From Timema cristinae (lineage: Eukaryota; Arthropoda; Insecta; Phasmatodea; Timematidae): a stretch of DNA of 64,000 bases. The notes beneath the pieces were generated by a model that saw only the letters and a program-made list of their open reading frames with translations, was not told where the DNA came from and ran no database searches. Location of the stretch: the NCBI GenBank assembly GCA_039000515.1, contig JBCFYV010011135.1, forward strand, positions 5,144,212-5,208,211, read 5' to 3'. Positions 6,194-62,601 of this stretch are shown piece by piece. Position numbers and translations under genes: made by a program. Numbering within the stretch: the first letter of the stretch is position 1; every line of letters starts with the position of its first letter.

Positions 6194-6383
6194 GCTACGA
6201 GTGTGCAGCGGCTGCAGCCGAAGAAGTGGACAAAGAGGTTCAGAAACTTCACAAACAAATCATGGAAATCACAGAGGGGAGGATGAAAGCTGCTCAGAAA
6301 AAACTTGATGTCGTCAATAAAAAGATTGACAAGACTCGACAAGACGCCACGCGACTCAAGGTCGCCATTAAGACAGCAGACAG
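6194..6383 (+). CDS. SMC4: SMC4 exon C, first copy (C-terminal coiled coil)
   Basis: SMC4 pairs with SMC2 in condensin, which uses ATP to compact mitotic chromosomes. This exon follows an AG acceptor at 6192-6193 and ends at a GT donor at 6384. It starts with the last two bases of a codon and ends two bases into the next. The 62 full codons begin YECAAAAAEEVDKEV and end KVAIKTAD. The KxAIKTADR motif is a highly conserved landmark of the SMC4 C-terminal coiled coil. Its 5' phase fits exon B at 53439-53565 and its 3' phase fits exon D at 11368. An apparently identical copy is at 62412-62601. No exon that could precede it lies to its left within this window. Confidence 0.93.
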
Positions 6384-6634
6384 GTAGAATTCATATTTTA
6401 TGTGCTTGGCTGAAATCACATCCAAACTTCATACACTTAAGACAAATTATCTATCGTTTCACAATCAAAACTTCAACGGCATTAAGTCATATGGGCTGTC
6501 CAAGAGTTTCTCATTATCACCAAACTACTAAGACTACTAATCTTTTACTTAACAGCAAGTAAGACTTGTCTCTAGAGTTGGATTGAATTCACTATTTTAC
6601 GAATCTTAATCTCCAATGTATTTTCTTTTAGTGT

Positions 6635-6830
6635 TAGACTAGGCTTCTGAAGACGGGAAGATGAGGTTCAAATCTTGGTTGAGTGTATTAAGAATGTTTT
6701 TTTTTTTTTCAAAAAATCGTTTAGGGGAAAATTATTTTAAATTGTTTCCCATCCCGTTCTTGCGGGAAATTGTTACTTCCCGCCCCGCCCGAAAATTTCC
6801 CGCAGTAAAGATGTAATTCCCGCACATGAC
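6635..6830. repeat. SINE-head-like remnant and CCCGC-rich block
   Basis: Positions 6640-6700 contain a box-B-like GAGGTTCAAATCTTGG followed by a T run, resembling a truncated tRNA-headed SINE. From 6747 to 6805 there is a short cluster of CCCGC and GCGGG motifs in both orientations. The class is uncertain. Confidence 0.35.
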
Positions 6831-6855
6831 TAATTCTTAATTTAATCCAATCATT

Positions 6856-7092
6856 AACCGCTTAGGTGGTCTCATGGTCATATCACAATAGACTAGACTG
6901 CCAGTGACGAGAATATCAGGGTTTGAATCTCAGTTGGGTGTACTGAGTTTTTCCAAAATAGTTTTCCACTATCCCTCCACACTAAGGTGAGTACACTTCT
7001 TCTAAATCAAACCTTAAACATCGCTAACCCATTAGCATCATTAGTACACAGATTTATATCCCAAATGGGTAGTAAGATGTGGTGCTAAAGAC
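6856..7092 (+). repeat. tRNA-headed SINE, family 3
   Basis: A tRNA-like head (box-A-like CTTAGGTGGTCTCATGG, box-B-like GGGTTTGAATCTC) is followed by a body with TTTTCCACTATCCCTCCA and a tail ending GGGTAGTAAGATGTGGTGCTAA. The tail is a diverged version of the family 1 tail, although head and body differ. Related copies: 11148-11317 (minus, tailless), 23947-24212 and the duplicate at 63061. Confidence 0.7.
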
Positions 7093-7139
7093 ACTCATCC
7101 TATTGAAACAATTGGCTTATTTTATCAACAACCTATTGG

Positions 7140-8570
7140 TGAAAATATAGCCAAAGTGATTGATGGCCAACATTCATGAGATAACAACAGAGGAATGACA
7201 TCGACAAAACTTATAAATAGGATATACGGAACAGGAAAAATGGCCCAGGGACTTTCTCTACGTAACCATGTTGGTTCTAAAGAAAGAGAAACAATCCAAG
7301 TAATGCAGTGACCACAGGATCATCAGCCTCGTCTCTCATGTTGGAAGGATTGTGGCAAGAATATTCAACAGGCGAATGGAACAGGAAATAGAAAACATAA
7401 TGGGAAAAGACAAATTTAGATTCATAAAAGGAAAAGGAACCACAGATGCCGTCAGGATGCAAAGAATAATTCCAGAATTAGTGCTGAAAGTCAATGAAGA
7501 GGTATACATTGACTGTCAAAAGGTGTTCAATAGAGTGTCATGGAAGAAACTAATGGGAATACTCAATAAGATTGGTATCAACTGGAGGGAGAGAAGGTTG
7601 ATTGCAATCCTGTACCTGGGACAGCGAGTGAAGGAGAGTCTGAATGATGGAGGGAGAGAAGGTTGATTGCAATCCTGTACCTGGGACAGCGAGTGAAGGA
7701 GAGTCTGAATGATGGAGGGAGAGAAGGTTGATTGCAATCCTGTACCTGAGACAGCGAGTGAAGGAGAGTCTGAATGATGGAGGGAGAGAAGGTTGATTGC
7801 AATCCTGTACCTGAGACAGCGAGTGAAGGAGAGTCTGAATGATGGAGGGAGAGAAGGTTGATTGCAATCCTGTACCTGAGACAGCGAGTGAAGGAGAGTC
7901 TGAATGATGGAGGGAGAGAAGGTTGATTGCAATCCTGTACCTGAGACAGCGAGTGAAGGAGAGTCTGAATGATGGAGGGAGAGAAGGTTGATTGCAATCC
8001 TGTACCTGAGACAGCGAGTGAAGGAGAGTCTGAATGATGGAGGGAGAGAAGGTTGATTGCAATCCTGTACCTGAGACAGCAAGTGAAGGAGAGTCTGAAT
8101 GATGGAGGGAGAGAAGGTTGATTGCAATCCTGTACCTGAGACAGCGAGTGAAGGAGAGTCTGAATGATGGAGGGAGAGAAGGTTGATTGCAATCCTGTAC
8201 CTGAGACAGCAAGTGAAGGAGAGTCTGAATGATGGAGGGAGAGAAGGTTGATTGCAATCCTGTACCTGAGACAGCGAGTGAAGGAGAGTCTGAATGATGG
8301 AGGACAACAGTGTAGAGATAGAAAGAGGAGTGAGGCAGAGATGATGTTTGTCACTCAATCTGTTCAACTTATATAAAGAGTCGCTAATCAGTGAAGCCCT
8401 GGATGGACCTGGCAATTTCAGGATAGGAAGACACGTCATCAACACAATAAAATATGTAGCTGGTCTAGCATTGCTAGACAAAAATAAAGAAGAGTTGCAG
8501 GAAATGATGGACTGGCTGGTGGAGATAGGGAGAAGATATGACATGGCGTGACACCCCGGTCTGCAGCGCC
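7140..8570 (+). pseudogene. non-LTR retrotransposon reverse transcriptase, dead, with internal tandem expansion
   Basis: From 7322 on, one frame reads ISLVSHVGRIVARIFNRRME and continues through KFRFIKGKGTTDAVRMQRI and VSWKKLMGILNKIGINWRER, which are the finger and palm blocks of a LINE reverse transcriptase. The coding sequence then enters a 65-bp tandem array (7584-8298). It resumes with EIERGVRQR, a stop, CLSLNLFNLY (from the GVRQGC-LSP-LFNLY block) and YVAGLALLDKNKEEL. In a working enzyme this last block would hold the FADD catalytic aspartates; here they are replaced by VAGL. Upstream, 7240-7320 retains a shifted remnant (WPRDFLYVTMLVLKK). The element is clearly inactive. A second copy starts near 63345 and is cut by the window end. 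Confidence 0.85.
7584..8298. repeat. 65-bp tandem repeat, 11 units, inside the reverse transcriptase
   Basis: Unit boundaries fall every 65 bp from 7584 (7649, 7714, 7779 and so on) with no length change, giving exactly 11 units in 715 bp. The unit comes from the RT codons for WRERRLIAILYLGQRVKESL. Units differ only at single sites: the first two have CTGGG where the others have CTGAG, and the eighth and tenth have AGCAAGTG instead of AGCGAGTG. Because 65 is not a multiple of three, the array runs through all frames and produces long spurious open frames on the minus strand. Confidence 0.97.
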
Positions 8571-9030: not shown

Positions 9031-9089
9031 TTTGTATTTTCTATTTGTTATATTTATATTTCCTCTTAGGTTCATAATTATTCCCAGAT

Positions 9090-11317: not shown

Positions 11318-11367
11318 TTGTATAAATTAACTCATGTTTGACTGTCACACATCAACATAACTTGCAG

Positions 11368-11512
11368 GAATGCTAAGAAGAGTCAGGATAAGATAGCCAA
11401 TATGGAGGAGGAGATCCACACAGCAGAGACTAACATCATCTCCCTGCGGAAACAGACGGAACAAATTGAGCAAGAGACTAAGAAAATATTGGATTTGTTC
11501 AATATAGCTTGT
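11368..11512 (+). CDS. SMC4: SMC4 exon D (C-terminal coiled coil)
   Basis: The acceptor is TTGCAG (ends 11367) and the donor is GTAAGT at 11513. The first base completes an arginine codon started at the end of exon C, giving the conserved TADRN junction. The 48 full codons read NAKKSQDKIANMEEEI through TKKILDLFNIAC. This is heptad-rich, charged coiled coil matching the SMC4 segment just after the KxAIKTADRN landmark. The exon ends in phase 0, as exon E requires. An inserted SINE lies immediately upstream. Confidence 0.9.
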
Positions 11513-15435: not shown

Positions 15436-15609
15436 GACAAGATAAAGGAGCACAACGCAAAGCAAATGGATCTAAAGACTAAGTTAGACAAGTTAGATCA
15501 GGAAGAGGGCAAGATAAAGCTGGAGAAACTGGAGTTTGATCACAAGTTGGAAGCTCTTGAGACACACATCAAAGGAATTAAGTCAAAACAAACCAACTTA
15601 AAGAAGTCG
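15436..15609 (+). CDS. SMC4: SMC4 exon E (C-terminal coiled coil)
   Basis: The acceptor TTTACAG ends at 15435 and the donor GTAAGC begins at 15610. The exon is 58 codons, phase 0 at both ends: DKIKEHNAKQMDLKTKL through SKQTNLKKS. It is lysine- and glutamate-rich coiled coil with leucines in heptad spacing, and it lies at the expected place in SMC4 between exon D and the I-P-E/LT-LD segment in exon F. On its own it would be hard to assign; phase and position support it. Confidence 0.85.
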
Positions 15610-15814: not shown

Positions 15815-16815
15815 TATAAAAGGTCTGTCCAAAAAGTTCCCGAACTTTTTAAATAGCACAACAATGCACTGTCATAGCTCTGTGCGGAATGCGTCTTTGC
15901 TTCGCAGCAAACCTAGCAAATAATATTCCGTTATCTAGTCATTTTATTGTAATTAGTTAGTGCAGATTTATCTGGTTGCTAAACCCTTCCTTCACCTCTG
16001 ACAAGACAACTTGTGAATGTGGGGAAAGCCAGGCCTCCACCGTGGTTCGGATCCCACGTTAAACTGTAGGTCCTCCATTTCATCTCACAATCACCCTACC
16101 ATTACACATTAGTATAAGTTCGTATAACCTGAATGGTTAGTAAGACACGGTGCTAATAATAATAATAATAATCATCATTGGGGGTATATCGATGCGGGTA
16201 CCGATGAACCGTTATCGGGTGATTATTAGTGCTTCGGCAATTGAGTACAATTTAAAGTAAAATTTTCTATATGTGAGTTAAATGATAAAAAAAACATAAT
16301 ATACACTCTGCATCTGAATTGTGGGCTATGCAAATATTACACAATCAGATAAAGAATTATAAGTTTATATCGTTGATAAAACTAACAATATATTTTCAAC
16401 TTTTGCCAGTTAGACGATGATTAATCAAAAATTAAGATTATCAAATGTTTGTTTTTAAATAAAATATTTTTTATGTCAGCTACTGTTATCTTTCTCCTAA
16501 GCATATTTCCCAATAGTTATTAATAAATAATCAGAACTAATTGGGGTATATAATCTCAGCATTAACAATTATTATCTTAAACAATTGGGTAATTGGTTTT
16601 ACTGAGTCGGTACACCTCAAGTAAACATTATTGTAACTAGTCTTTGGGTTGCATTTTTTGAGATGACTTAAGTTTCACAAGCAGTCTATCAACATCAAAA
16701 TTAATGTTGTGCCAAACTTGGGGAAAACTTTACTGAGACTTAAGAAATGATGAAACAAGTTTGTGATGAACAGTACTTAGGCCATACACAGTGCTATGAA
16801 TGGTTTGAGCCAAGG
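15815..16815 (+). pseudogene. mariner-like element remnant
   Basis: Positions 15817-15850 carry a mariner-type terminal phrase (GGTCTGTCCAAAAAGTTCCC). At 16676-16815 are fragments of the N-terminal transposase region: SINIKINVVPNLGKTL in one frame and VCDEQYLGHTQCYEWFE in another. The latter is the mariner block normally reading Y-GD--LS-TQ-FEWF. A SINE (15964-16185) has inserted between the terminus and the coding remnant. There is no catalytic domain. Confidence 0.6.
15964..16185 (+). repeat. SINE family 1, 5'-truncated
   Basis: It starts within the body at GCAGATTTATCTGG, lacks the tRNA-like head and continues through CCACCGTGGTTCGGATCCC to the tail GTAAGACACGGTGCTAATAA with an (ATA)n run. 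Confidence 0.85.
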
Positions 16816-17388
16816 ATTAGCGCCCCCCATTAGTTTCTAATAAATTATGTTTTATGTTAAAAAACTACAGTATGGAGGGGCATAAAAACATTGTAAAATC
16901 TGTTTTATAGCTTATAATGCAAAGTTAAATGTATCTTAAGAAACTTAGGTGACAGAAATTTTTAATAACATATTTGAGTTCAGCACATCAATCTTAGTAG
17001 AATTTATGTATGTTGTACGGCCCCTGTAGCCACTGATTGAGTATCCGCGGTTCCAGTTATTTGCGGCTTACCGCTGCCCAATTTTATTTATTTTTAAATA
17101 GAGGAAAAAATGGTTTATAGCCTTATAGGTCACAATGCCTACACCATCACCCCACTTCATCTCCTCCTGGGCATTGTACCCTCACCATCATCAGCATCAT
17201 CATCAGTCACCATCGCAACAAGAAGAATGCAGAATAAAATAGTGGGTACACTGTAGTGTACAGTACACATTACTAAGTACTTTATTTAATGTTAGTAATG
17301 CCTTGCTGTGAATTATTTATCAATTAAACCTTACCGTATTTATGTATGTTAAATGAATACCATGTTATAAAATATTGGGGACGCGGCA

Positions 17389-17568
17389 GTTGGCCTAAAA
17401 GGCATTTGGCCTAAAGGCATTTGGCCTAAAAATGAAACCAAAAGTCATTTGGCCTAAAAGGCATTTGGCCTAAAAGGCGTTTGGCCTAAAGGCGTTTGGC
17501 CTAAAAGGCGTTTGGCCTAAAGGCATTTGGCCTAAAAGGCAGTTGGCCTAAAGTCATTTGGCCTAAAA
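17389..17568. repeat. GGCCTAAA tandem array, left
   Basis: About 11 units of 15-16 bp, alternating between ATTTGGCCTAAAAGGC and ATTTGGCCTAAAGGC with A/G variation at the first base, all in one orientation. Positions 17426-17445 hold a short non-repeat interruption. Confidence 0.95.
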
Positions 17569-18627
17569 TGTAAATTTAAAACCTTCGGTTATCTTCGGAA
17601 AGTAAAAGGTACTGTTAGTTGTTTCATCTGAATATAGATAGCACAACTGATGCAAGGTAGTTACAATATTTCTAAAAACATTGACAATATCCTACATACA
17701 AATAGATCAGTAGTTCACAAAACACTATATCACCTTTTTTATATATAGATTTCCGATATTGTTTCCTTGTTAATATATCTCACGGTCATAAAGTTAACGA
17801 AAAACAATAAGAAAATTCCATTCTCAGCATCGTTTACGCTCGGTAAAATTATATGCGTACATTCAAATTATGGGGACTTTTGACAACTTATTCCGAAAGG
17901 CAAAATGAAAGTGGAAACCAATATTCAACCCACCCACTTTAAATTTGTCTGAAGTGACGCCCGATTTTCGTTTAGCGCTACTGAGATATATATGAACATA
18001 TTTTTTTTATCTATTGTATTAATAATTAATATATAATTAATAGTGACGCATTAAATAAATTTTGACAGTAAATATTACAATGGTCATATATATATAAACT
18101 TAAATTATGGTTTTGACTAGATCCTTAACTCTATTATTATTATTATTATTATTGTTAGAATTATTATAACTATTATTATATAAAATTAGTACAGTTATTT
18201 TTTTTCAAACAGTGTAACTATTTTTATTACGGTGATATTATTAACAACATGGGCTATGTTAACACAATAGGTCCTTTGTTTAAAAACTATATACTAATTT
18301 CCCTCATAGTAATTTGCAAAGCATTCTCAGGAATTATTTCAACTTGTGAAAAAAATACAAAAGATTTTATGGATTTGTCGTTGGTCTTTTTTTAAGTCTT
18401 CATAAAACGTAAAAATACAAAATGTGGTAGCCTTTACAGGATGATAACTTCCTAGGGCAAGAAAAACGTACGATGTAAGCAAGTGGACCTCCGAAATGCC
18501 AATGGCTGCAGCAGAGGCCAGAGGGATAAATCTGACGAGCTTTGGTTGGTAAAAATATCTCACCGCTAGGATCGCCTGTGTTCTCCCATTCCAAAAAGTG
18601 ACACTCTTATAGCCTAGATGCAAACAG

Positions 18628-19640
18628 ACGTGACTCAAGTTAGCCCACCACATTGCCGAAAAAAAATCTTTTTTTTGTCTAATCGTTTGTGCTCTATTTA
18701 TGCTCATATGTGCCCGAACATGAACATTTGTGCTGTTAAACTGGCCATTTTAGAAAATAGTTAATGTGGTGGGCCAACTTGAGCTCAAGCTAGCCCGCTA
18801 CATATTGAAAAACACAACATAACCAAATTTATTTAAGTCAATCCATTGTGTTCCATTTGTGCTCATATGTGCCCGAAAATGAACATTTGTGCTTTAAAAT
18901 TAGAAAATCTAGAGAACATTTAATGTGGCGGGCTAACTTGAACCTTCCCTATATCATAAACTGTAGAAAAATATAGTTCAAACTGGCCAGCCACATTTTT
19001 AAATATCAATGTAACAAAATTCTGTATTCACCATTCGTTTGTTCTTAGTTTTTGCTCATATGTGCCCGAAAATTAACGTTAGGTCTGTGAATCTAGGCCT
19101 TTTAGATAACATTTAATGAAGGCGATCCAACTAGAGCTCAAGCTAGCCCACCACATTAACTGTTTTCTAGATTTTCTAATTATAGAGCACAAATACTCAT
19201 TTTTGGGCACATATGAGCACAAACGAAAAACAAACGAATGGTGAATACAGAATTTTGTTACATTGATATTTAAAAATGTGGCGGGCCTGCTTGAATTCAA
19301 TTTTTCTACAGGTTATGGTATAAGGAAGACTCAAGTTAGCCCGCCACATTAATTGTTCTTTAGATTTTATAATTTTAAAGCACAAATGTTCATTTTCGGG
19401 CACATATGAGCACAAATGGAGCACAATGGATTGACTTTAATAAATTTTGTTATGTTGCGTTTTTCAATATGTGGTGGGCTAGCTTGAGCTCAAGTTGGCC
19501 CACCACATTAAATATTTTCTAAATTGGCCAGTTTCACAGCACAAATGTTCATGTTTGGGCACATATGAGCACAAATAGAGCACAAACGATTAGACAAAAA
19601 TTGTTTTTTCAGCAATGTGGCGGGCCAACTTGAGTTACGT
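18628..19640. repeat. nested inverted array of six palindromic units
   Basis: Three units of about 150-165 bp (from 18634, 18784 and about 18977) are followed by their mirror images (from 19136, about 19329 and 19488). The centre is the palindrome GAGCTC at 19133-19138. Each unit has its own inverted ends of the form CTCAAGTTAGCCCRCCACATT..AATGTGGYGGGCYAACTTGAG and a core GCTCATATGTGCCCGAA. The structure is therefore palindromes inside a palindrome. Open frames across it (for example 18339-18707 minus) have no protein similarity. Confidence 0.9.
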
Positions 19641-20025
19641 GGCAAACAGGCAAAATCTTCTCTTTCTCTCTTCTCCGTCGAACTCTACAAGAGACTTTGA
19701 AGGGTGGGATTAGGCAGCAGTCCTTTCCTCACTCCATTCCTAATAATAGCAAACTACCTTGAAGTAAACCATAACAAAAATTCATTGTTCCCCGGCAACT
19801 TTCCTTTGGTTCTTTTTCAAACCCACTAACATAATTTGTTTTGAGTTTCACAAGTTGTTGGCGGGTACCTCTGTCTTGCTTCATCCTTTGCTTTATATAG
19901 ATTAAATAATGTATTGATTTGTATATTTTTGTGTAAAGTTTAGTGATATCTAATTTTTTTAAATATGTATTTCATCTTCATTTTTGAAAGAAAGATTTTT
20001 ACTATAAAATAATGAATCGAGGACA

Positions 20026-20925
20026 AAAATGTGCATACCGCGCCTGCTCAATTACACGATGTACTTAAGGTAATTTTTCCTAAATGGTTTCCCGTTTTTC
20101 CACGCAAACGAGGGTACTTCTCATAATTCTATCTTCCTCATACCTACCTTCTAATTGCTATTAAATGTGGAAAGCATTGACTGGCGTGAAGATACAATGA
20201 AAAAACAACACTACTAGAGCTTACTCTATTTACTTGAAAAACATATTTTAGACAGTGAAAATACATCATATTCAAATATAACAAATGTACATTTTTGTAT
20301 AATTATAATTACATTTAAACTTTATTTAACATTTTTAAGATAAATACTATACTTACTATGTTGACTTAATAATATAAAATGAGAGACTCCTTTAACACAC
20401 TGGCTCAAAAAGTATTCATTATTAACTCTCTCTCTCTCTCTCTCTATATATTTTATATATATATATATAGAGAAGAGAAGTATAATAATGAATATATATA
20501 TATATTAAAGGAGAGAGAGAGAGAGTTAATAATGAATTACTTTTTGAGCCAGTGTGTTAAAGGAGTCTCTCATTTTATTTTAAAGTCAACATAGTAAGTA
20601 ATAGTATTTATTTTAAAAATGTTAAATAAAGTTTAAATGTAATTATAATTATACAAAAATGTACATTTGTTATATTTGAATATGATGTATTTTCACTGTC
20701 TAAAATATGTTTTTCAAGTAAATAGAGTAAGCTCTAGTAGTGTTGTTTTTTCATTGTATCTTCACGCCAGTCAATGCTTTCCACATTTAATAGCAATTAG
20801 AAGGTAGGTATGAGGAAGATAGAATTATGAGAAGTACCCTCGTTTGCGTGGAAAAACGGGAAACCATTTAGGAAAAATTACCTTAAGTACATCGTGTAAT
20901 TGAGCAGGCGCGGTATGCACATTTT
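20026..20925. repeat. 0.9-kb near-perfect palindrome
   Basis: The left arm (about 20026-20445) starts AAAATGTGCATACCGCGCC and the right arm (about 20506-20925) ends with its exact complement. The arms are about 420 bp and highly similar, differing by a few substitutions and small indels, for example within 20338-20380. The 60-bp centre is CT-rich, then AT-rich, then GA-rich. It is not preceded by a clear target duplication. Confidence 0.93.
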
Positions 20926-20929
20926 ATAT

Positions 20930-22009
20930 ATATATATATAATATAATTTTATATATATATATAATCTAAACCTTTATTAAAGGGTTTTGAACTAAAGTTT
21001 GGTACCCTTTAATTAAATAAAAGCTAATGGATATACTTTTGATTTTTTCATTTGACGAGAAAAAGGGGCATTATAAGTTCATAAAAACCATTTTAATAGC
21101 TATCATATTTTATAAATTAATTATATCTATGATAAAATGACCTCTAACTAAGCGTTTACTTAGAACCAGTGGCGCACTCATTGGGGTGGAGTAAACGGGG
21201 CACCTTCCCCCATAACCCCTAATAATTTCAATACAAACATTAATTATTTAATTTATAACTAAAACATTAGACACAGAAGATGAGTCGTATACATAGGCTC
21301 CTTTTGAAGACTTGGTTTAAGACTTTATATTCAAAACACACACATATTAAAAGTGCCACTTATATTCTCATTTGAAAAAAGCACAACCATAGTAGCTTCC
21401 ATACATTGTATACAAGAAAATGTATATAACTAGTAGCCACCATTCTGGTAATTAAGTTCGTTTTAGTTTTTAAGTTTCTTAACACAAGATATGGGTTATT
21501 ACACCGAGGACCTCGCTTATATAGAGACTTCAGAATCACTCGCACCCCACCCAATTTCGGTTAAAATTAATACTAAAGTACTTCGAACTGACAAAGCTAC
21601 CAGAGCGTGTTATTCAACACATTAACATATATTGACTTAGACCAGGGGTTCTCACATTTTAGACCGAAGGAGCCTTTGTACCAGAAAAAATGAATGGCCG
21701 AACTCTCATAAAAATATTTACACTAGTATTATGATCATTCAATAAATACATTTAAATCTCACAAGTCTTTTATAATTTAATACTTGAATGAATATAAAAG
21801 AAGAACTACACTACACCCCGACCTCCGCGTCACTCAAAAACAAGTTATATTTTGAGTGCGATGACTTATGAGATCAGGTAGTTTATAGCGTTAATACCAA
21901 CGTACCAGTTTTTTATTTGTGTACAGAGGTGTAATTTTTTTTATCACGTAATATAGAATTATTTTGATAACACATAAACCGTACTAAACGTTGATTTCAA
22001 TACACAGTC
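20930..22009. other. intronic DNA with a possible hAT terminus
   Basis: Starts with (TA)n runs at 20924-20965. At 21644, CAGGGGTTCTCACATTTT resembles the terminus of a hAT-type MITE, but no matching second end was found. No gene. Confidence 0.4.
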
Positions 22010-22200
22010 CGACACTTTATCTCAGTTGGTAGCGTGTTTGTATACTGAGCTAAAGGTCCCGGGTTCGATTCCCGGAATGTCCGAAAAACGTATCATTGGT
22101 TGACTGTGCTTTTCCCCTTTCACAATTATGAATTAACTGTCAGGGGGCTGGATGTTGTATTTGTTCTAGATTTAAGTTAGTTTGTCAGACTCTGAGGAAA
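22010..22200 (+). repeat. tRNA-headed SINE, family 2
   Basis: The box A is TTATCTCAGTTGGTAGCG and the box B is GGTTCGATTCCCGG, followed by GAAAAACGTATCATTGGTTG as in the minus-strand copy at 10125-10330. The T arm pairs well (CCGGG/CCCGG), but the D and acceptor arms are poor, which argues for a SINE head rather than a functional tRNA gene. Confidence 0.75.
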
Positions 22201-23630
22201 TAATCTACATTCTACGGTGTGTCTGTCACTAGTTTTATATCGAGTGTCACTCATTGAGCGTGAACTGGGAAAGAGGGAAGAGTTGATAGGGTGGGGTATT
22301 ACCAAATTTTTCTCCCCCCATCGAAATGTGCCTCCCTCCATTTTGTTAAACTTCCCTCTGATATACTTGAATTTGAAGCTGAAAGATGGTTTGCATCAAA
22401 CTTCAAAAAGATTATATAACAATCTATTATTATTTTTAAATGCTTAAGGAACACCCCAAATAGCTTTTAGTGGCATTCCATTTTCAAATATTTTCCACTG
22501 GCTTGGAGTCAAGCATCTAAAAACTCCTTAAAAATAGTGTTTTTACAAACTACCTTGCCCAACACTAATAAGCTTCGCCGATACTCTTGATAGTCATCAC
22601 AATAGGTTTTTTTTCATTGTGACTTACTACCCGTTTGAGTTGTACACATACATCAATTTACCCTAATGAACCAGGAATGAGGAATGTTACATTTTAGATT
22701 GAATGTACCTACATTTGCGTATATTGAGAGTGGGGTACCATTTTAGGGAAAAATACCCTTGTTACACACGGCTTGGATTTGAATTTCAATCTTAGAGGAC
22801 AACTTTATTTCCAACTGAGGAGGGGCGGGTGGGGGATATAGGTGGAGGACACACATATTATCTACAACTTTGATGGGGGCATATATTATTACCAACTTAT
22901 ATAACACAAATGTAGCTGAATCTAATATTACCCTTTAAATATATAGTTTGACACACTCAGTTGAACATTAATATAAATTCAAGATTTTCACTATACTACA
23001 AATTGGTTTATGAATAGGCCTACTTACAAGAGGGTTATTAAATTTATATTGAAAAGTTAACACATAATTTAAGTGAACATTTACGTCACCAAATACCTTA
23101 ATGCTTTCATTAACTTGCGTACTATATACATTTGTTCATGTACTACAATAAACTATGTTCTTGTAAAAAAACATTCATGTGTGTCATACAGCCACGTGAT
23201 TTATTAAATTTAGAAATAATGTTTCCTAAGTATGTTTTAAGATGGCACGGATAACATAAAACTATATCCACCTTGCATGGGGAGATTTTTCTTACAGACT
23301 ACTGTCCACATTAATGAAGCAAGATCGATTTGTTTAATAAGGTTATAAAATGCATATGTGAAATTTTGCAGTTAAGTAAACTATTTAAACAAATCATTAA
23401 ATTCACTATAGAAGGGGACTTTTCCATAAAGTAAAACTATTGGGGGTGATATGTTTACACGCCATGAAACCACTTACTATTTGTTTCGTAAATCTAATAC
23501 AATGCCTAGATTCATGGGTGATATATTTTCCCCTTGGATAACATTTTCGGAGACATCACAAATAAGGGCGATTTTAATTTGCTTTTTTAAGGAAATTACA
23601 GCTGTTAGGACTGAAGGTCTCGTTCATATT
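22201..23630. other. intronic DNA, no gene seen
   Basis: Contains a short inverted remnant of the SINE tail at about 22617-22660. Open frames of 60-76 codons here have no recognisable domain. Confidence 0.45.
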
Positions 23631-23632
23631 CA

Positions 23633-26970: not shown

Positions 26971-28214
26971 TAGATATGGGTCGAATCCACTATTTCTCGA
27001 ATCTGAATCTACATTTATTTTCGAATCCGAAATAAAATTGTTAGAAATTTTAATTATTTACAAATAGACCTACTTTACACAATATAGACCTAAACTGAAA
27101 ATTAAGATTTATTTCAATCATGCTTTCAATTTTAATCAACCCCAACCACTCCCAAAATACAGGTTAAAATCCAGCAAAATTAAACAATCTAGACTCATAT
27201 TATTGTTTAAAAATCAAATCAATAAAAATTTTAGTGTCATTTAGTTATTTTTAGAAGTGTTTTAGAATGAGTTAAGTTTCTAAAAAAATATGTGAAATAA
27301 ACAGATTAGGCCTAGTTATCCTTTGATCAACTTTAATCATCATTGAAGGATTATAATTTATTTTACTAATATAGCAAAAATAAAATTGCAAACAGACTTT
27401 TTTTTAATAAAGACAACATGAATAACAATTAAACATTACATTGGAAATAGGGAACTCAATAATGCCTAAGTATGTTTTATTATATATCCATTATCTATAT
27501 TTGCATAAAAAAACAAAAAATATATTTGATTCTTGCAATATATGATTTCTGAGAATACATTCTGTTTAAAACACAAACATATTTTCGACTACAATGCGTT
27601 CATTCCTATTTTATAAGGCAGAACTACGTTTGAATATTTCTGCAATTACTTCAATAACATATTTAAAAAAAATAATAAACTCTTAGTTAAAATCAATTTA
27701 AAAACAAATAATGAATAGCAAGTCATTATTTGATTCTTAACACTCGAGAACGCTTACTAAGGGATCAGATTACCTGAATAGATTTTAAACAAACAGTCAA
27801 TATATGATACATATACTGGTAGGGATAAATAAACAGTTTTATCGCTGTCTGACTGTTGACAGTATTTATTTTTCATGAAACCTAACAAAATGTCTAACTT
27901 AAGGATCGTATGCAATAAATTGTGGTTCTTTGCATAGTTGAAGGTAATTAAAACCAGTTGTGTAGTAAGAACCGACGGTATCTTTATTTTAATCATCCCT
28001 TGGTCGAGTAAACATAATATACGTCATGGCGGCCGACTTTGTATCGTGTGTAATGGTGGCTGACTTAGTATCATGCATAATGTGTTCTTATTTCTGTTAA
28101 AAAAAAACACGTAATTATTAATTTTCTGTTTTTGAAAAGTTTTAATGTGTTTATTAAAATATTTACAAGATTGTTCATGGGGGGACAGTTTTAGAAGCGA
28201 GCATGTGATGAAAC
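26971..28214. mobile_element. R1 element copy, right end lost
   Basis: Starts TAGATATGGGTCGAATCCAC and follows the R1 sequence closely until about 28214, where similarity to the other copies stops (GTCGACTGGGGGTGG). The expected CCCATCTCTA end is missing. Confidence 0.7.
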
Positions 28215-29562: not shown

Positions 29563-29593
<31 letters not shown>

Positions 29594-31135: not shown

Positions 31136-31139
31136 TTCA

Positions 31140-40193: not shown

Positions 40194-40300
40194 GTAACGT
40201 ATTAGCTACTCTTGGCAATGCTAACTGAACAATCACTAGACATTTATTCCAGGAAGTGTCTGTAGTATCATTGTATAAAAATGTTGGTTTGTTGTTATAA

Positions 40301-40306
40301 AATAAA
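40301..40306 (+). promoter_or_regulatory. possible SMC4 polyadenylation signal
   Basis: An AATAAA hexamer about 95 bp after the in-frame TAG that would end exon I by read-through. Such hexamers are frequent by chance in DNA this AT-rich. Confidence 0.25.
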
Positions 40307-41815: not shown

Positions 41816-42060
41816 CCCTCGAGTAGGCGTGCTGGGGTATAAAGTACCTTAATTGTGTGTGTTTTAGCACACTCAGGTGCCTGGCAGACGTGTTGCTCTG
41901 TCTAATCTTTCAATGTGACCTTGACTATTGTTTGGTGTGGTTAGGTTAGTTTTCAGTGAAATAAATTAGTGCCTCTGAAAATTGAATTTATTTGAAAGAG
42001 AGTATTACTGGGGTATTGCATACCCCACATGCCCACTCGAGTCATGTAAGTTTTTATATA

Positions 42061-44322: not shown

Positions 44323-44462
<140 letters not shown>

Positions 44463-44730
44463 ATAATTGATAATTCATAAATGATTAAATTTCTATGCAA
44501 CCCTCATAATTATTTTTTGGGTATTTTTTATTTTTATTTTTAATAGAGTTAAGAAGCTTGTGTTATATTCCTTTCAAGGTTATAAAATATAGAGTTATTG
44601 AATTTACATCTTGTTTTGTCCTAAAAATATTTCCATTTTTATTTACTACTCTGTTATAACCAATTGGTTGTAGAAATTGAAAAATCTAGTAAGGGAAAAA
44701 AATCAAATAAATTCTTATTTATTTAGAATG

Positions 44731-45082
44731 ATGTTTCCTGAAGAAATTGCAAATTATTCCAGGAGCTGTCAGATGATGAAGAATATATTGATGATTCTGA
44801 TGAAGATGGGGAAATTTTAATTCATAGTGACCATGTTAGTGAGTCTGAACAAGATTGTGTTTCTTCAGATGAAAATAGTAAAACTACAACTAATGAAGAT
44901 TATTTTACCGGAAAAGATAGAGAATGTATTTGGAGGAAATCTGACTTTTCAAAGAAAGGAAAAATTCACACAAAAAACATAGTCAAAGTATCTCCTGGTG
45001 CCAAACTTCTTGCAATGGATATAAAAGGGGAATATCGGCATATCATAAAATTATTGATATGGTTATGTTAAATGACATTGTA
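44731..45082 (+). pseudogene. piggyBac transposase, N-terminal fragment
   Basis: An ATG at 44731 gives MFPEEIANYS. A frameshift then leads to ELSDDEEYIDDSDEDGEILI, then NEDYFTGKDRECIWRKSDFS, and finally HTKNIVKVSPGAKLLAMDIK. The acidic N-terminus, the YFxGKDxxxxWxK block and HxxNIVxxxPG are characteristic of piggyBac transposases. A second shift near 45045 leads to IIDMVMLNDIV, the start of the next conserved block, and the sequence then enters the gap. The catalytic domain is not available. Confidence 0.82.
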
Positions 45083-45182
45083 NNNNNNNNNNNNNNNNNN
45101 NNNNNNNNNNNNNNNNNNNNNNNNNNNNNNNNNNNNNNNNNNNNNNNNNNNNNNNNNNNNNNNNNNNNNNNNNNNNNNNNNN
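45083..45182. other. assembly gap, 100 N
   Basis: Exactly 100 N, the usual placeholder for a join of unknown size. Nothing on the two sides can be shown to be contiguous: the piggyBac coding sequence on the left is not continued on the right. Confidence 1.
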
Positions 45183-47588: not shown

Positions 47589-47826
47589 GTACCATGTCGG
47601 GGGTGGAAACCGTGTGTTGAAGGGCAAGATGGGCCAGCGAGTGGTGTCCCAAAGCCCTGCCTCTGTGAAGGAAGTGGAACGAATGGAGCGCAGAATAGAA
47701 ACACTCCAGCAACGCCACCAACAACTACAACAGGAACACACGGCGCTAGAGGAGCAGATATCAACACTGGCCCCACAACTACAACGAATGAACACAGACT
47801 TGAACAAATTCAACATTGACCTACAG
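47589..47826 (+). CDS. SMC4: SMC4 exon A (just after the hinge)
   Basis: The acceptor GAGCAG ends at 47588 and the donor GTCAGT begins at 47827. The first base completes a codon from an exon not in the window, and the exon ends in phase 0. It reads YHVGGGNRVLKGKMGQRVV, then KEVERMERRIETLQQRHQQL, then NTDLNKFNIDLQ. The GGGxxVxKGxMG motif marks the exit from the SMC4 hinge into the second coiled coil, so this is the earliest SMC4 exon present here. Although it lies downstream of exons C-I in the window, it precedes them in the protein. Confidence 0.94.
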
Positions 47827-53438: not shown

Positions 53439-53565
53439 ACACAGGAAGCTCATGAGCCTGTGTTGAAGGAACAGTTGAAGAAACAGAAGGAGAAGCTGCT
53501 GGCCGCAGCTCCAGACCCCGTACAGCTTAACAACAAGCAAGCCAACGTGGACAAGGCCAGGAGAA
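53439..53565 (+). CDS. SMC4: SMC4 exon B (C-terminal coiled coil)
   Basis: The acceptor TTTCCAG ends at 53438 and the donor GTAGGA begins at 53566. It starts in phase 0, matching exon A, and ends one base into a codon, matching the two-base start of exon C; the joined codon is serine. It reads TQEAHEPVLKEQLKKQKEKL, then LAAAPDPVQLNNKQANVDKA, then RR. The position and the AxAPD motif correspond to LATAPD in vertebrate SMC4. At 42 codons it would be easy to miss; the phases on both sides make it secure. Confidence 0.9.
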
Positions 53566-53893: not shown

Positions 53894-54091
53894 TTTTATA
53901 TGGTTTTAATGAATAAATAAAGTAATAGGAATATTTAAAATAAATATGCATCTCTTCAACTAATCATTGCATGCAGTGAAATTGATTGAAAGATAAAAAT
54001 TGAGATATTGTCGGTGATTCACAATTCGCCTCCCTCTCTCTCACACTCAATCTGTCTCACTTACTGATTCTTTTACCACTACCCTCAAACT

Positions 54092-54118
54092 GTAACGTTG
54101 ATTTGACATCAACGTTAC
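54092..54118. repeat. perfect 11-bp-stem hairpin
   Basis: GTAACGTTGAT, a five-base loop, then ATCAACGTTAC. It is not followed by a T run. Confidence 0.85.
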
Positions 54119-55206
54119 AAGAATGAAAGATATACTAGCGAATGAACACTATTTGAACAACACCTAGAATAAACAACATTGTACTCACCAAGGAGTGCCC
54201 CGTTTCTCGGCTAGTGTGTGTCGACTCTCGTAAATCAACTTCCCTGTTCACGAGCACTTTTTCTGCACCGAGTGTGAAAACAGCCTAAACGAGTGAAAGG
54301 TGTGGAAAATTGAGCGTGAGGTCGCACGTTGCATCATGGGACTAACCTCGTGATTGACACGTGACGTTCTACGCGCCCCTCCAATGATCTGGTTGTTTCC
54401 CTTGGTAACTTACGACCCCTTCCCTCTGTTCCATGTGATTGTTCTTTGATGTTCTTTTGTTTCCCCTATGTTCCCCTCCCCTCAGAGAATAACGGCTTAT
54501 ATACGGGTTCTGTTTGTGGTGTAAGATCACTTCTTGATTCAACTGTGTCATACGACAACCACATTAGGACAGGATGATTCTAAGGTATAAATTCTATTTC
54601 GGCCTGTACACATCAAAATTATCTTTGGAACTTATATTATTCATTTAAAAGAAATCTATGCTGGTACAAATTCTATTTCGGCCGGTACATTCAAAATTAA
54701 CTTTGGGACTAGTATTATTTATTTTTGGATTACCATTATATATTATCTTTTGTAAATATGTTAGATCACGAGGAAAGGTATGCCCGGCATGGCATAAAAT
54801 ATTCTAAATATTAATGTAGGTAATATTTGTAGAATTCCTTTTTTGCCCTTCTGGATCTACAAATAATTGTGATTTATGGTGAACTTTACCTTTTGTAATG
54901 TCACTCTAAATCTACGTAAGGCGTGTTGCCTACCTAATGTGGGAATTGTTATAGCCCGTACGGCTATGTAGTTTTTGGTATTTATTGTATATTTATTGAA
55001 TCTTGGAGGATCTCTCTTTGTACTGTGGTAAACTTTGATTGCCAATAATATTTTCAAGTTAGTTAATACAACTTCGCTATTGTTGTGCGGACGGTTGGCC
55101 TGTGGTGGCTAGATGTTGTATTCATTGTATTGCGGATTGCCGCAGAGACCCTAAGGGGCCATGGATTTAACTTGGTAATAATCTTTAGGTCGTATATAAC
55201 CTTTGT

Positions 55207-55312
55207 TATGACAACGGTATTATTATGGGCATAACCTATGTTGTTACGACAACTGTATTATCATGGGCATAACCTATGTTGTTATGACAACTGTATTTTT
55301 ATGGGCATAACC
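55207..55312. repeat. 38-bp tandem repeat, just under three units
   Basis: Units contain ATGACAACTGTATTATTATG and GGCATAACCTATGTTGTT, with small differences. Confidence 0.9.
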
Positions 55313-55862
55313 CAATCTTATATATATATATATATATATATAAATATCTATTTATTCATTGTTGTTACTTACATTTGCATATATCAATTGTTATCTTTTA
55401 TAATAAACATTCTTATACTCAATGCAACCTTTTAATTTACTAATTCTAGGTAAATGAGTTATATCTTTAAACATAAGATTCTCGACCTCCTTCCCATTGC
55501 TCATAGTACCAACATGGCGGATGATAGTTAAGGAGAGTTCATGGAAGCACAATCGTTGTATAAGCCAGAGAGAAAGGCCTATTCACTTTTATGCAGTCCT
55601 ATCAGCTCCTCTGCAATTTATCATTTGTTATTGTTTATATGTTTATTTTGCTCTTGTGTAATGTGCGCCTGCCCTTATCTATTAGAGGATAAGGAGGGCG
55701 GTACACATCTCCCCATTTGTCAGAGAATGAAAGAAATTAATTAGTTTCTACTTGTGCTCACACATAGTTGTTGAAGAGTCTGAATTGTAAGCAATTTTCG
55801 AGTCAAAGTCATTAAATATAGTTCGACTTTGGCTTGAAAATAAAAACTTATAATGTTATAAC

Positions 55863-57408
55863 TAGAGATGGGTTGAATCGTTATAAATTAAATAGACCTA
55901 CTTTACACAATATAGGCCTAAACTGTGAATTAGGGTTTATTTCAATCATGCTTTCAATTTTAATCAACCCCAAACCCCCCCCCCCCCTCGCAAAATACAG
56001 GTTAAAATCCAACCAACTTAAACAATCTAGACTCATGTTATTGTTTAGAAATCAAATCAATCAAAATTTGAGTGTATTTTAGTTATTTTTAAAAGTGTTG
56101 TTAGAATGAGTTAAGTTTCTAAAAAACATGTGAAATAAACAAATTAGGCCTAGTTATCCTTTGATCAACTTTATAGTCATTATTAAAGAATATTTTATTG
56201 TATTAAGATAGCAAGAATAAAAATATGAACAAATATTTTTAATAAAGACTAAAACAACATGCTTAGCAATTAAACATACATTGGAAATAGTGAACTCAAT
56301 AATGCCTAAGAATGTTTTATTATTATTTTATTATGTATCCATTATCTATTTTCACATAGAAAACAAATATATTAGATTCTTGCGATATATCAATTTCTGA
56401 GAATACATTCTATTTAAAACACGAACATATTTTCGACTACATTATGTTCGTTCCCATTTTATAAAGCAGGACTACGTTTGAATATTTCAACAATCACATA
56501 TTTAAAAAAATAATAAAAACTAAGTTAAAATCAATTTAAAAATAGATAATGGATAAACAAGTCATTATTTGATTCTTAAAATTCGAGATCACTTACTAAG
56601 TGATCAGATTACCTGAATCGATTCTAAACAAACAATCGATATACGATACGTAGGCCGGTAGGGATAAATAAACAGTTTTATTGCTTTCTGACTGTTGACA
56701 GTATTTATTTTTCATGAAACCCAAGAAAATGTCTAACTTAATGATCATATGCAATAAATTGGGGTTCTTTGCATAGTTGTAGATAATTAAAACCAGTTGG
56801 GTAGTAAGAATTAACAGTATCTTTATTTTAATCATCACTCGGGCGAGTAAACATAATATACGTCATGGCGACTGACTTTATATTGTGTGTAATGGCGGCT
56901 GACTTTGTATCATCCGTAATGTGTTCTTATTTCTGTTAAAAAAAAGCCGTTATTTGTTTAATTTATTTCAAGTTTATTTGTAATTCTAATTTTGATTTTC
57001 AGTTTTTGAAGAGTTTCGATGAGTTTATTAAAATATTTACAAAATTGTTCATGAGGTGAAAGTTTTAGATTGAGCATGTGCCGAAACAGTCGAGTCCAAG
57101 TTTCCCATACGGCTGGGAGGTAGGGTACTAGGCACGTAAGATTTTCCACGCCTAACTTTTTTTTTTTTTTTTACAAAAAGTTTTTATTCATGTTTATTTC
57201 TTTTGTCCGACAAAATAAATTTTATGGATTAAGTTGTGCTTTTCAAGTAGGTCTAACTAAGTAATCTTTGAATTTAACATATTACGCTTTGTTTATGAGG
57301 TGAAAGATTCGATCATTGAATCCAGTAAAACACCGAATCATCAAATCTCTAATACTTGTCAGGATTTGGTGGATTCGAGGATTCGAAGATTCGAGTGGCC
57401 CATCTCTA
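55863..57408. mobile_element. complete R1 hAT-like element (1.55 kb)
   Basis: Bounded by TAGAGATGGG and CCCATCTCTA and flanked by GTTATAAC on both sides (55855-55862 and 57409-57416). This target is itself palindromic and sits within AATGTTATAAC/GTTATAACATT, so the visible inverted symmetry is longer than the true terminal repeat. It fits the nTnnnnAn preference of hAT targets. The homologous copy at 1-1181 has the same right flank, so both are the same insertion event carried in a duplicated locus. Confidence 0.78.
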
Positions 57409-58258
57409 GTTATAACATTACATCATAAATATATCAGTTTAACACTATACTTTTTTATTTTTATGTCCAATGTTTTTGAAATTGTGTTTGACAAGTTTAT
57501 TTAAATATAAATTCACAATGCTAAAGAAATTTCTCATGAAGTTATCTGTATAGTAGCATTTTATTGCAGTAAATTTGTTATTACTAATTAATACACAACC
57601 ATTTATGAAGAAACAGTCAAAGGTATGCTGTAGCGACCTCACAGCCGTGGCCAGCAACAATCAAAGCTTACATATCTCCCCTTTTACCCTCCAACCGCTA
57701 GTCTTTTAGCAATAGTAACCAAGGATAGAGAATAAATACAATGAAATCTGCACTACCCTAAAGGACAATTACGGTAATCGGAGTAAACAATTGTTGGCTC
57801 TTAACACCAATCATTAGATCAACCAAATAAGTTATTTGTCAATGATAAAATTGGTCTAGCGTTATTTAATTTCGTGAAATAATTAATAAGTAGACAAAAT
57901 AAACAGCTTGCAACATTTATGGAACTAAGGAATGAACGGTCATGTACACTCAATTTAAGCGAGGGATTACCTCTATTTCCAGTGGCAACAATGTAAAGTG
58001 TGGACTGTGTTCTTCTTTTGTTGTAAAAGTCATATTGTATTTGTCCCCTATTATCTCTTTCTATCTCTTAGTCCTGTGCCTTCTCACAAATATAAAACCA
58101 TGTTGTATCTTATAAGATAGGACCATAAGACAATCCTTCAAGGTAAGAGTGTACATCACATCAATAACAGAAAGCAGATTCTAATGCGCCAAAATGTATA
58201 AAATAGATGTGCAACTAGGCATTAAAAATATGGGCTCTAGTCACCCAAATAGGTACTT

Positions 58259-59190
58259 AGGCCGATGTATTCAGCAATGCAGTAGTTGCTTTGTAACTGG
58301 TTTATAAGATTATCTGTGCAGCAGTCATAGTGGCCTCTCATGGGGTATTCCATCTGTGTGAGTCTGCTGTTGAATGAGGTGGAAGGTTGGTGATTTTTGC
58401 AGGCTTTGTTGCAATGGTATAAATATTTGGCTTTATGTTTTTTGTGCCTGGGTTGGGCAATTTAGTATGAATCAGAATGTTGCAGAGTTTAGGGGGGGGG
58501 GGGGTCATTAGAATGTTATTCTTAGAGCACTGTTGAGAATATTTTGTGTCAGAGGTGAGGAGGTTAGGATATTGTAGCATGTGTAGGATAAATCTGAGTT
58601 TGTATAGTCCTTAATAATACTGGGTGGTGAGTGGTATGTCATTGGAAGGGTATCCTCTGGCTGGGAAAGCCTTGAAGAGTTGTTGACATTGCTTGTTAAG
58701 GTCGTTTGGTAGCTAGGCTATAGGTTGGAAAGCGTTAATATGAACAGGATGGTTGCTTTGGAAATGGAGGTATTGTTGATGATTGGTGGTGAGGTTTTTG
58801 TTTCCCTCAATAAGGTCCCCGCATGGTGTTGCGAAATGTTTCAGGTGAATCTGAAGACACTATGGTTATTTCATCTGTACAAGAACTGTAATAAATTAGT
58901 TTCCGAATCTCTCCAAATCATTAAGATATCAATAAATCTCATCCAGCAAAGCGGTTGCAAGGCTTCGGATTGAAAAAAAGTGTGTCTCTAGTTTGCCCGT
59001 GAAGAGGTTAGCGAAGGAGGGGGCCATGCATGTACCCATTGCCATCCCTCAGATTTGAAGGTCAGGAAGAGTAAAATGTTCTTTTCAAGTATGAGGGGGG
59101 CGGATTCCACTAGAAGGGTTTGGAACTGGGTGGTCGTTTGTCCAGAAAATGTTACATTGCATAAAGTCTTTAAGTGTGGGCTTCGTAGAC
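58259..59190 (-). pseudogene. Penelope-like RT fragment, duplicate copy
   Basis: Duplicate of 2030-2990 with the same stops and the G-AMGT block. It lacks the 10 bp present near 2835 and has a longer G run near 58493. Confidence 0.75.
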
Positions 59191-59271
59191 GGGAACTTGC
59201 TCACCAATATATAACCAAATACAAGTAGGCCTACTCACATTAGTTAATCATTTCTATATCAATAAAGATAT

Positions 59272-59556
59272 TAGATGACCTGGTGGTCTAGGGTTAAGGG
59301 TCGGACTTCTATGCTGGGGGTTTGGGGTTCAATCCTCGATCCCGGAACAGATTTATCTGATTGCCAAACCCTTCCGTCACCTCTGACAATATTTGTATTA
59401 ATCACAACTTGTGAATGTGTTGAATGCCAGGCCTCCACCGTGGTTCGGATTCTACGTTAAACTGTAGGTCCTTCATTTCATCTCACAATCACCCTACCAT
59501 TACACATTAGCGTAAGTGCGTATAACCCGAACGGGTAGTAAGACTCGGTGATGATA
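59272..59556 (+). repeat. SINE family 1, duplicate copy
   Basis: Duplicate of 3050-3335. Its tail (GCGTAAGTGCGTATAACCCG) is closer to the family consensus than the first copy. Confidence 0.85.
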
Positions 59557-60435
59557 ATAATAACAACAAACATTATGCTAATGTGATAAAAATAATGAAG
59601 TTGGAATCTGGAGTTGGAAGTGTAGCGACATTGTCATGGAGGGTAAGGGAAAAACCCCAGATAAAAAACCTCAATAGACCTGAACAACATTCAATCTCCG
59701 ATTTCCTTGTCATCAGCATTCCATTTTATTGCGGGAAGTACTCCTTAAACCACACAGCCACCGAAGTATGCTCACAGCCAATTTACATTGCTGATGATCA
59801 CGAGATACTTTAGTAGATTTCAGGGAGGGAAATTGGATCTGTTGTGAGACAGAATGTTTTCATAATTTCAAAAAACTTTGTTCTACTTCACATGATGTCA
59901 AAAAACCAAATTTAAAATTTGCCATTTCCAAAGAAGTTAAACTTTAATCCTCGTGCAATGGCATGTTGTTTCAGAAGAAAATATATACCATAGAGAGAGA
60001 AAAGGACAAAGCCAAAGCCATTATTTATAAACTAGGCAAAAACAAATCGGTGACACAATTATAGGCACAATAAAATTAATATATTTTACTCATTATAACA
60101 TGAAATGGATACATATCTCAACTGACTATATTTTACGATCAAGGAACAGAAAAGGCAAATAAGCAAAATTTTCTCTCTCGCATGTGTTTGATAATGTTTC
60201 AGCTCTTAAATCACACTATAATACACAAATTACCTCGTGCTTTTTTCATGTTTATCAAGTTCAAAACTGTTACTGCCAATTTTATAAAAATGTCGAGACA
60301 GATCATGAATAGTTGCTTCTTGAAAAGACTGCTAGTAATTGTACCCTCAGATTAAGCACTAAACTTTCCTTTTAAAACCAGTGCATACACATTTACTCAT
60401 TATATTACTGTATTTGTAGTTGATCAAATTAATAA

Positions 60436-62150
60436 TAGGGGTCTGCGAGCTTGGGTTTTTTCATTAGAGTTGAACTCGAGTCGAGTATTTCTAAAAGCTC
60501 CCGAGTTCGAGTCGAGTTTGAAAAATGTATATTCATAATTTTAAATATTAAAATTTATATTAAAACACACATTCTTAAAATATGAATGACACTCATGTTT
60601 ATAAATAATAAATAGTATTGAAAAAAAAAGTTAAATAATGGAAATTTCTGTTCTTAAATTAGAAATAACACTTACAAAACACAGTTTAAAAATAAGAACA
60701 CTCAAATAAAGATCTAATAAAAACAAAATAAAATCATTTCAACACTCATATCTTTAAGGACATTAAAATTACACTAACAATTATAGAAAAAGTTAATAAA
60801 ATTGATAATTGCATGATGGCTTGGAAATGTATAACACAATAGTGTAGAAACACTGTACAGTAATGTAAAGTAAGTGATAGTGAAGGAAGCCAACATGAAA
60901 GGATAGTTAGATTAGGCCTAGAAAGAAACAAGCACACTTCTCCATGTCTTCTAACACTTTTCCACTTTTTCAAACTTCCACAGTTGCACATTAGTTTGAA
61001 TTTTCAGGAATATTATTTTTTCATTAAAGTCTGCTCATATGAAAAATAAATATTTTCGAAAATTCAAAACCATGAGCAATTGTGGAAGTTTGAAGAAGTG
61101 GGAAGTGTAAAAGTTTAGAAAGAAAATAGAGAAGTGTGTTTGTTTATATCTAGGCCTAACCTAACTATCCTTTCAGGTTGGCTTCCTTCACTATAATTTT
61201 ACATTATTGTGGAGTGTTTTATACACTGCCTTTTAAAATGTTAGTAAAATTGATGTTTTAATAAGCTAATATTTCTACAAAATATATTTCAGTAACTTAA
61301 TTTACCCTATAAGAAAACATAAGAATCATAAACAATTAGAAATTTGAAGTGTTTTGTATTTTGTTTATTATTCCTTAGTATAATCGTGCATGATCGCGTC
61401 TTTTGTTCCTTTTCAACTCTTCTATGTGCAGTTGCACATGCACATTGTACAGGCTCTCAGTAAACATTATTTTACTGAGAAATTTATTTCAATTCAATTC
61501 TTAATGCTTATGTAAGTTGATGCTGATACTTTTAAATTAAAAATAATATGACTAAAATATTTCTAGCAAACAATATGGAATAGTAATTTTTTTTTAATTT
61601 AAATGTAAGTTTGGTAAATAAAGTATGTATTGCAATAAATAAGATCAACATTGATTTTAACAGGTTAACCAACATAACTAAACTAGAGATAGTTTTGTAG
61701 CTAAATGTATTAATTAATACTGGTTTTAAATATCTTAGGTTTGATAACATTTAATATAACGATATATTCTTGAGATTAAATTTGTAAATAACCATAAATT
61801 ATTGTTTTAGAATGGGACAAGTTAAAAACAGTAAAAAGAATCATTCATCTATTTTGTAATATTCTTAGCTATTTTATTTTCATTGTTTTGTCTTGGCAAT
61901 ACAAGTAAACAACTTCAATCAAGTATAATTCAAAATGGATGAAAATATTGAATAAATTTACCTGTTGAAAGTGGTTTTAAAGTTCTATTATGTTAATAAT
62001 GTGAAAATTGAAATTAATTTTTAACAATTTGTTAAGTAACCGAATTATTATTAAGTACATAAAGTGGAAGCTTGAAAATGACGAGTCTACAAAACTTTCT
62101 ATCTCAAGCTTAAGCGATGAGCTCGTAATACAAGCACTCGCAGAGCCCTA
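60436..62150. mobile_element. E2 hAT-like element, duplicate copy
   Basis: Duplicate of 4216-5932, with the same termini and flanks and the same internal hairpin at about 60840-61225. Confidence 0.7.
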
Positions 62151-62411
62151 ATGAATAATAAAAGGAAATGAGGGAACATTTCGTACGTTTCCGTCAAGCA
62201 AAGCTAAACCAGGCAACAGCTCTTAGTTCTTTCGTGCCTTCTTTTGAGCTTTATTTAAGTTTGAGTGAAAACCTTTACTTTTTATGTTTCTCTCTTAAAT
62301 GGTTGATTCTATAACTGGATAATTTCTTAAGTAAATTATTTATTACATTTTCTGAGAATCCGCCATATATATTTTGTCTTGTGTAACTATAGATACTAAT
62401 ATTGTTTATAG

Positions 62412-62601
62412 GCTACGAGTGTGCAGCGGCTGCAGCCGAAGAAGTGGACAAAGAGGTTCAGAAACTTCACAAACAAATCATGGAAATCACAGAGGGGAGG
62501 ATGAAAGCTGCTCAGAAAAAACTTGATGTCGTCAATAAAAAGATTGACAAGACTCGACAAGACGCCACGCGACTCAAGGTCGCCATTAAGACAGCAGACA
62601 G
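62412..62601 (+). CDS. SMC4: SMC4 exon C, second copy
   Basis: It appears identical to the exon at 6194-6383, with the same acceptor (TTTATAG) and donor (GTAGAA). It lies downstream of exons A (47589) and B (53439) in correct order and phase, so in this part of the window A-B-C is a normal gene order. Whether exons D-I follow beyond 64000 cannot be seen. Confidence 0.94.

Follow-up and report, generated by a model that had tools for sequence, protein, structure and literature searches.

We analyzed a 64,000-nucleotide stretch of the Timema cristinae assembly (C7570:5144212-5208211; "the window" hereafter) in which the exons of SMC4, a condensin subunit gene, appear in circularly permuted order around a gap and one exon is present twice. 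We conclude with high confidence, on the basis of sequence comparison, that the SMC4 doubling is a false duplication made during assembly, in which an allelic copy is combined with contig overlaps that were left unmerged. SMC4 itself is most likely a single ordinary gene with exons in the order A-I, and the circular permutation, as the alignments indicate, is an effect of window cutting. The contig limits, the overlaps, the exon copies, and the error pattern described below are direct observations. The record C7570 comprises 38,559,088 bases in an assembly of 1,291,024,802 bases in 7605 contigs. We compared the surroundings (C7570:5050001-5300000, 250 kb) jointly with the window; coordinates of seven digits refer to C7570, and shorter ones to the window.

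Contig limits and copies of SMC4

Two runs of N, each 100 N long, are present in the 250 kb, at 5189294-5189393 and 5254438-5254537, and the first of these is the only one inside the window, as the initial annotation had reported. The runs separate three contigs: X, which extends to 5189293 and contains no N from 5050001 onward; Y, which occupies 5189394-5254437 (65,044 bp); and Z, which starts at 5254538. All three are in the + orientation and follow one another on the scaffold as their ends do along the locus. At the two gaps, the end of X, both ends of Y, and the start of Z all fall inside homology with 0 unaligned bases, the first base of Y lying within X-homologous sequence and its last base within Z-homologous sequence. 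The homologous stretch covers approximately 58 kb of X. Both junctions between copies are 100-N gaps on one scaffold, and no contiguous sequence crossing a copy junction was found among the contigs of the 250 kb.

Positions 1-7795 and 56211-64000 of the window are 98.1% identical; their alignment of 7821 columns contains 92 mismatches and 16 indel events (57 gap bases). This doubled stretch reaches base 1 and base 64000 and has no repeat ends of its own inside the window; the copy offset is 56,210 bases, and subtracting it from 64000 leaves 7790. Because the repeat is flush with both window edges and the offset is 56.2 kb, a 64-kb cut through two copies looks circularly permuted.

To identify the gene, we joined the window exons in protein order and found a match to SMC4 in PDB entry 9f5w_B (E value 9.6e-125). 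This match is confined to chain residues 767-1298, and the window exons therefore represent only the post-hinge part of SMC4. Other SMC proteins matched less well (best E values of 1.8e-32 for SMC1, 1.3e-17 for SMC2, and 3.7e-15 for SMC3), leaving SMC4 the closest. AG acceptors are present at all nine exons and GT donors at exons A-H; the placement of exons B, D, E, and F rests on DNA comparison. Exon H is presumed to encode the signature motif and the Walker B side of the ATPase head. The nine exon positions had been proposed in the initial annotation and were reproduced here, as were the splice phases, which agree with the exon lengths provided that the length of exon A is taken from the X copy. 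The doubling of exon C, whose two copies are identical, and the duplicated 7.8 kb at the window ends were likewise confirmed.

We followed the course of SMC4 on X with a human SMC4 sequence as the query. On X the matches are collinear between residue 65 (5079611) and residue 1280 (5184380); exon I reaches its stop at 5184416, and the gene spans approximately 105 kb, including exons A and B to the left of the window. The domains follow in the expected order of Walker A N-terminal head, coiled coil, hinge, and C-terminal head. Residues 1-64 were not found on X with this query. A first pass gave no convincing match for residues ~303-542; a closer search located residues 424-500 at 5109271 (E value 3e-11), together with weak collinear coiled-coil matches for residues 384-425 at 5104697 (E value 0.019) and 498-543 at 5111601 (E value 0.53).

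Across the 250 kb, exon matches up to residue 752 occurred once, exons A-E twice (X and Y), and exons F-I three times (X, Y, and Z). These numbers are what the contig limits predict, because Y starts before exon A and Z starts before exon F. Beyond the window, exons A and B are found to the left on X, exons D-I to the right on Y, exons F-I a third time further right on Z, and exons G-I a fourth time on an unplaced contig, C5840. The initial annotation had suggested looking for A-B left of position 1 and for D-I past 64000, and both searches were successful. Coding differences are few: exon A of Y is one G short in a run that X has in full and is frameshifted, exon F of Y differs by one additional base and one substitution, and exon G of Y has three extra bases that are net in frame and shifted in between, while all other exon copies of X, Y, and Z are identical. 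The total of five one-base indels against one substitution resembles sequencing error and not the evolution of a duplicate. A search of the whole assembly with SMC_N returned at least nine matches with 13 of the 23 candidates scored, so the copy number off the scaffold is a lower bound; exon H was matched at three places on the scaffold and at one on C5840. Three off-scaffold matches (L006, L007, and L008) were weak against the human SMC4 query (E values from 6e-4 to 5e-8), as expected of other SMC-like genes.

Table 1. Positions of SMC4 exons, contigs, and shared or contig-specific stretches in the window
Feature	Position	Strand	Basis or remark
SMC4 exon A, copy Y, frameshifted (one G fewer than X)	47589..47826	+	DNA comparison, splice sites
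SMC4 exon B, copy Y	53439..53565	+	DNA comparison, splice sites
SMC4 exon C, copy Y	62412..62601	+	DNA comparison, splice sites
SMC4 exon C, copy X	6194..6383	+	DNA comparison, splice sites
SMC4 exon D, copy X	11368..11512	+	DNA comparison, splice sites
SMC4 exon E, copy X	15436..15609	+	DNA comparison, splice sites
SMC4 exon F, copy X	28778..28963	+	DNA comparison, splice sites
SMC4 exon G, copy X	30209..30441	+	DNA comparison, splice sites
SMC4 exon H, copy X	38594..38777	+	DNA comparison, splice sites
SMC4 exon I, copy X, final coding exon identified, in-frame stop at end	40044..40205	+	DNA comparison, splice sites
End of contig X	1..45082	.	SMC4 exons C-I here; earlier SMC4 exons left of window
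100-N scaffold gap between X and Y	45083..45182	.	Second gap at C7570:5254438-5254537, beyond window
First 18.8 kb of contig Y	45183..64000	.	First base of Y aligns with X 5131005
Part of X with its homologue in Y also in window	1..7795	.	98.1%, 92 mismatches, 16 indel events
Matching part of Y	56211..64000	.	Homology runs past window edge to ~C7570:5242768 with large indels
1.6 kb in Y, absent from X	54091..55709	.	X/Y comparison
X-only 7.0 kb at the position where the noisy stretch of Y starts	16347..23378	.	Bounded by short imperfect direct repeat
Last 17.8 kb of X, same as first 17.8 kb of Z (C7570:5254538-5272357)	27238..45082	.	99.64%
Part of X to which C5840 aligns over nearly its whole length	28934..41850	.	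95.2%

Divergence and errors among the copies

Contig Y is a mosaic. In its left part (5189394-5221754, ~32 kb), six alignment blocks that exclude minisatellite tracts cover 24,546 X bases and contain 214 mismatches to X (0.87%), of which 106 are transitions. Larger differences accompany these substitutions. X alone carries a 3.8-kb element (5137581-5141355) that has short terminal inverted repeats and shows a target duplication of 6 bp; we found no frame of 90 codons in its first 2.4 kb. A further 1.6 kb is specific to Y. A 65-bp minisatellite (window 7583-8303 and from 63788 on) has 11 copies in X and 38 in Y, and a 95-bp unit near it has 1 copy in X and 35 in Y (5211625-5214949). We infer that the left part of Y is the second allele and not a paralogue.

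The middle of Y (~5221740-5227500, ~5.7 kb) has 540 mismatches and 352 gap bases relative to X in 5883 columns (15%). In a slightly longer stretch, 197 of 549 mismatches were transitions, near the one third expected at random. Where the three contigs overlap here, 1852 columns of X and Z contain 1 mismatch and 4 gap columns, compared with 150 and 77 in 1912 columns of X and Y; since X and Z agree, Y is the faulty copy in this stretch. The noisy middle of Y is thus most likely unpolished sequence. The 7.0 kb that Y lacks at the start of this stretch may reflect an insertion, a deletion, or a faulty join in Y, and this X-only sequence contains one open frame of at least 90 codons (136 codons).

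Further right (~5227760-5241750), Y and X differ by 1 mismatch and 65 gap columns in 14,023 columns, 13 of these gap columns being slice-end overhang. Near its end Y departs from X, with 10 mismatches in the last 1.0 kb followed by a 9.1-kb Ty3/gypsy-like long terminal repeat (LTR) element (5242768-5251856) that has no counterpart in X and Z. The element is inserted at a TA repeat equivalent to window 44333-44458, its 535-bp LTRs are 99.4% alike, and the 7.2 kb of it that we examined contains one frame of 906 codons encoding reverse transcriptase, RNase H, and integrase domains.

X and Z, compared over 17,856 columns, differ by 20 mismatches (15 transitions; BLAST counts 18 mismatches) and 25 indel events, 18 in homopolymers. 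They may represent one haplotype, with residual errors, or two haplotypes with hardly any difference in this region. C5840, the unplaced contig, is 13,112 bp long, and its bases 1-13,106 align with X 5173145-5186061; the 13,209 columns of this alignment include 241 mismatches, of which 56 are transitions, and 395 gap bases. Its errors are patchy, ranging from 0 to nearly 10% mismatches per 500 bases, and its SMC4 exons G, H, and I have identities of 99.1%, 98.4%, and 87.2%. As C5840 is short, error-rich, and wholly inside the longer contig X, it would most simply represent under-collapsed reads of the same locus.

Proposed origin and alternative explanations

We propose that a long-read assembler, working on a heterozygous diploid animal, left this locus as four overlapping contigs. 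X carries SMC4 in full order, Y would be the other allele in its left part, Z would be the continuation and shares 17.8 kb with the end of X, and C5840 is a small noisy contig within the span of X. A scaffolder, probably guided by long-range data such as Hi-C, would then have put X, Y, and Z in line with 100-N gaps, leaving the overlaps unmerged. With the locus present in three or four copies, at least one haplotype of the diploid must be repeated, unless the duplication is real.

Several observations weigh against this explanation. Contig breaks occur at true duplications too, and gaps by themselves are no proof against one. Y is no clean haplotig, as over 14,023 columns it has 1 mismatch to X, compared with 20 in 17,856 between Z and X; it is nearly identical to X on the right, yet carries the 9.1-kb LTR element missing from both X and Z. 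Transitions make up 56 of the 241 mismatches of C5840, below a plain one third. Finally, the copies may be paired by haplotype in more than one way, X being closer to Y than to Z in part.

If the 3' half of SMC4 had very recently undergone a genuine partial triplication in tandem, with its junctions falling in both assembly gaps, this would explain why exons F-I occur three times in the same orientation on one scaffold, and duplications do in general cause contig breaks. We consider this very unlikely: the boundary of every copy is, to the base, the end of a contig, the 250 kb include no contig that runs across a copy junction, and Y is probably unpolished in a stretch where X and Z agree. X and Y are also almost identical over 14 kb, and the unplaced 13-kb contig C5840 has a fourth, noisy copy. 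Were the copies real, partial triplication of a condensin gene would be out of the ordinary. The initial annotation had listed a tandem duplication among its alternatives and had preferred another view, that the contig after the gap belongs before the other contig with an overlap of 7.8 kb. Within the window alone, A-B-C followed by C-I does restore the exon order. This swapped order is refuted by the presence of exons A and B in X, which runs on to the left of the window with further upstream exons and no N and which alone holds SMC4 from residue 65 to the stop; Y runs on to the right with exons D-I, and the overlap is about 58 kb, so we give a misorder practically no credence. Just as hard to sustain is that Y is a pure haplotig of the second allele with no other fault, since this suits its left 32 kb (~0.9% from X, with insertion differences) but not its error-rich middle or its right part almost identical to X, and Z (99.6% to the end of X) and C5840 are more copies than two alleles allow and need unmerged overlaps.

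Other parts of the initial annotation hold in modified form. The allelic haplotig that it named as a further alternative suits the left part of Y and has to be supplemented by unmerged overlaps. The permuted exon order is indeed seen in the window, but it arises from the window cut, SMC4 being collinear on X. The two broken SMC4 gene models that it expected would be spurious 5'-truncated copies, beside one gene that we traced in full order on X. Given that the false duplication is the favored explanation, caution is warranted on two counts: gene predictors could output frameshifted, spurious partial copies of SMC4, and a window that cuts through adjacent false copies mimics circular permutation.

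Other elements and comparison with published false duplications

Just 3' of SMC4 (window 42632-43924, + strand) is a 430-codon open frame for a DDE transposase (DDE_1, E value 1e-34; HTH_Tnp_Tc5; Brinker-type DNA-binding domain), which we take to be pogo/Tigger-like. Full-length DNA matches to this frame are found in X, Y, and Z with 0, 6, and 4 mismatches, respectively. The SMC4 intron between exons G and H contains a 44-bp minisatellite of 29 copies (window 33363-34644). A dispersed repeat of 1.2-1.5 kb with 27-bp internal repeats occurs in four copies (window 1-1200, 26997-28220, 48037-49666, and 55890-57427), which are 80-86% alike, X/Y-shared copies aside. No tRNA was found when the window was scanned with the bacterial code.

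The gene on X is collinear with SMC4, the closest solved chain being 9f5w_B, and shows no notable difference in sequence or exon order over its ~105-kb span. The doubling is most likely a known kind of false duplication and no biological novelty, and in the features we tested the locus fits the published descriptions. The passages on false duplication in PMC8081667 (2021) describe heterotype false duplications, homotype duplications that lie at contig boundaries and become tandem copies with a gap through scaffolding, and under-collapsed sequences; the legend of its Extended Data Fig. 6c presents a combined heterotype and homotype case. Characteristics given in a section of PMC9516828 (2022) are that copies on one scaffold have a gap between them and that depth is half or very low. 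As for depth at this locus, the error-rich stretches of Y and C5840 bear on it indirectly. A passage of PMC7203741 (2020) states that overlaps stay among the primary contigs when heterozygosity is high, as it is in most insects and marine animals, and that, to its authors' knowledge, none of the linked-read or Hi-C scaffolders handles heterozygous overlaps.

Like the heterotype false duplications of these descriptions (PMC8081667, PMC9516828), the locus has an allelic contig beside its partner on the same scaffold, across a gap. Haplotype-level divergence was found in the left part of Y, in both substitutions and insertions, and unlike in a heterotype false duplication the second-allele behavior is limited to this part. 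Like the homotype false duplications (PMC8081667, Extended Data Fig. 5b legend), X and Z have dovetailing ends, the copies are in tandem with a gap, and consensus quality is unequal, Y being noisy where X and Z agree. The overlap here differs from that type in being 17.8 kb long and in having its two ends kept apart by a third contig, Y. C5840, in turn, resembles the under-collapsed sequence described in PMC8081667.

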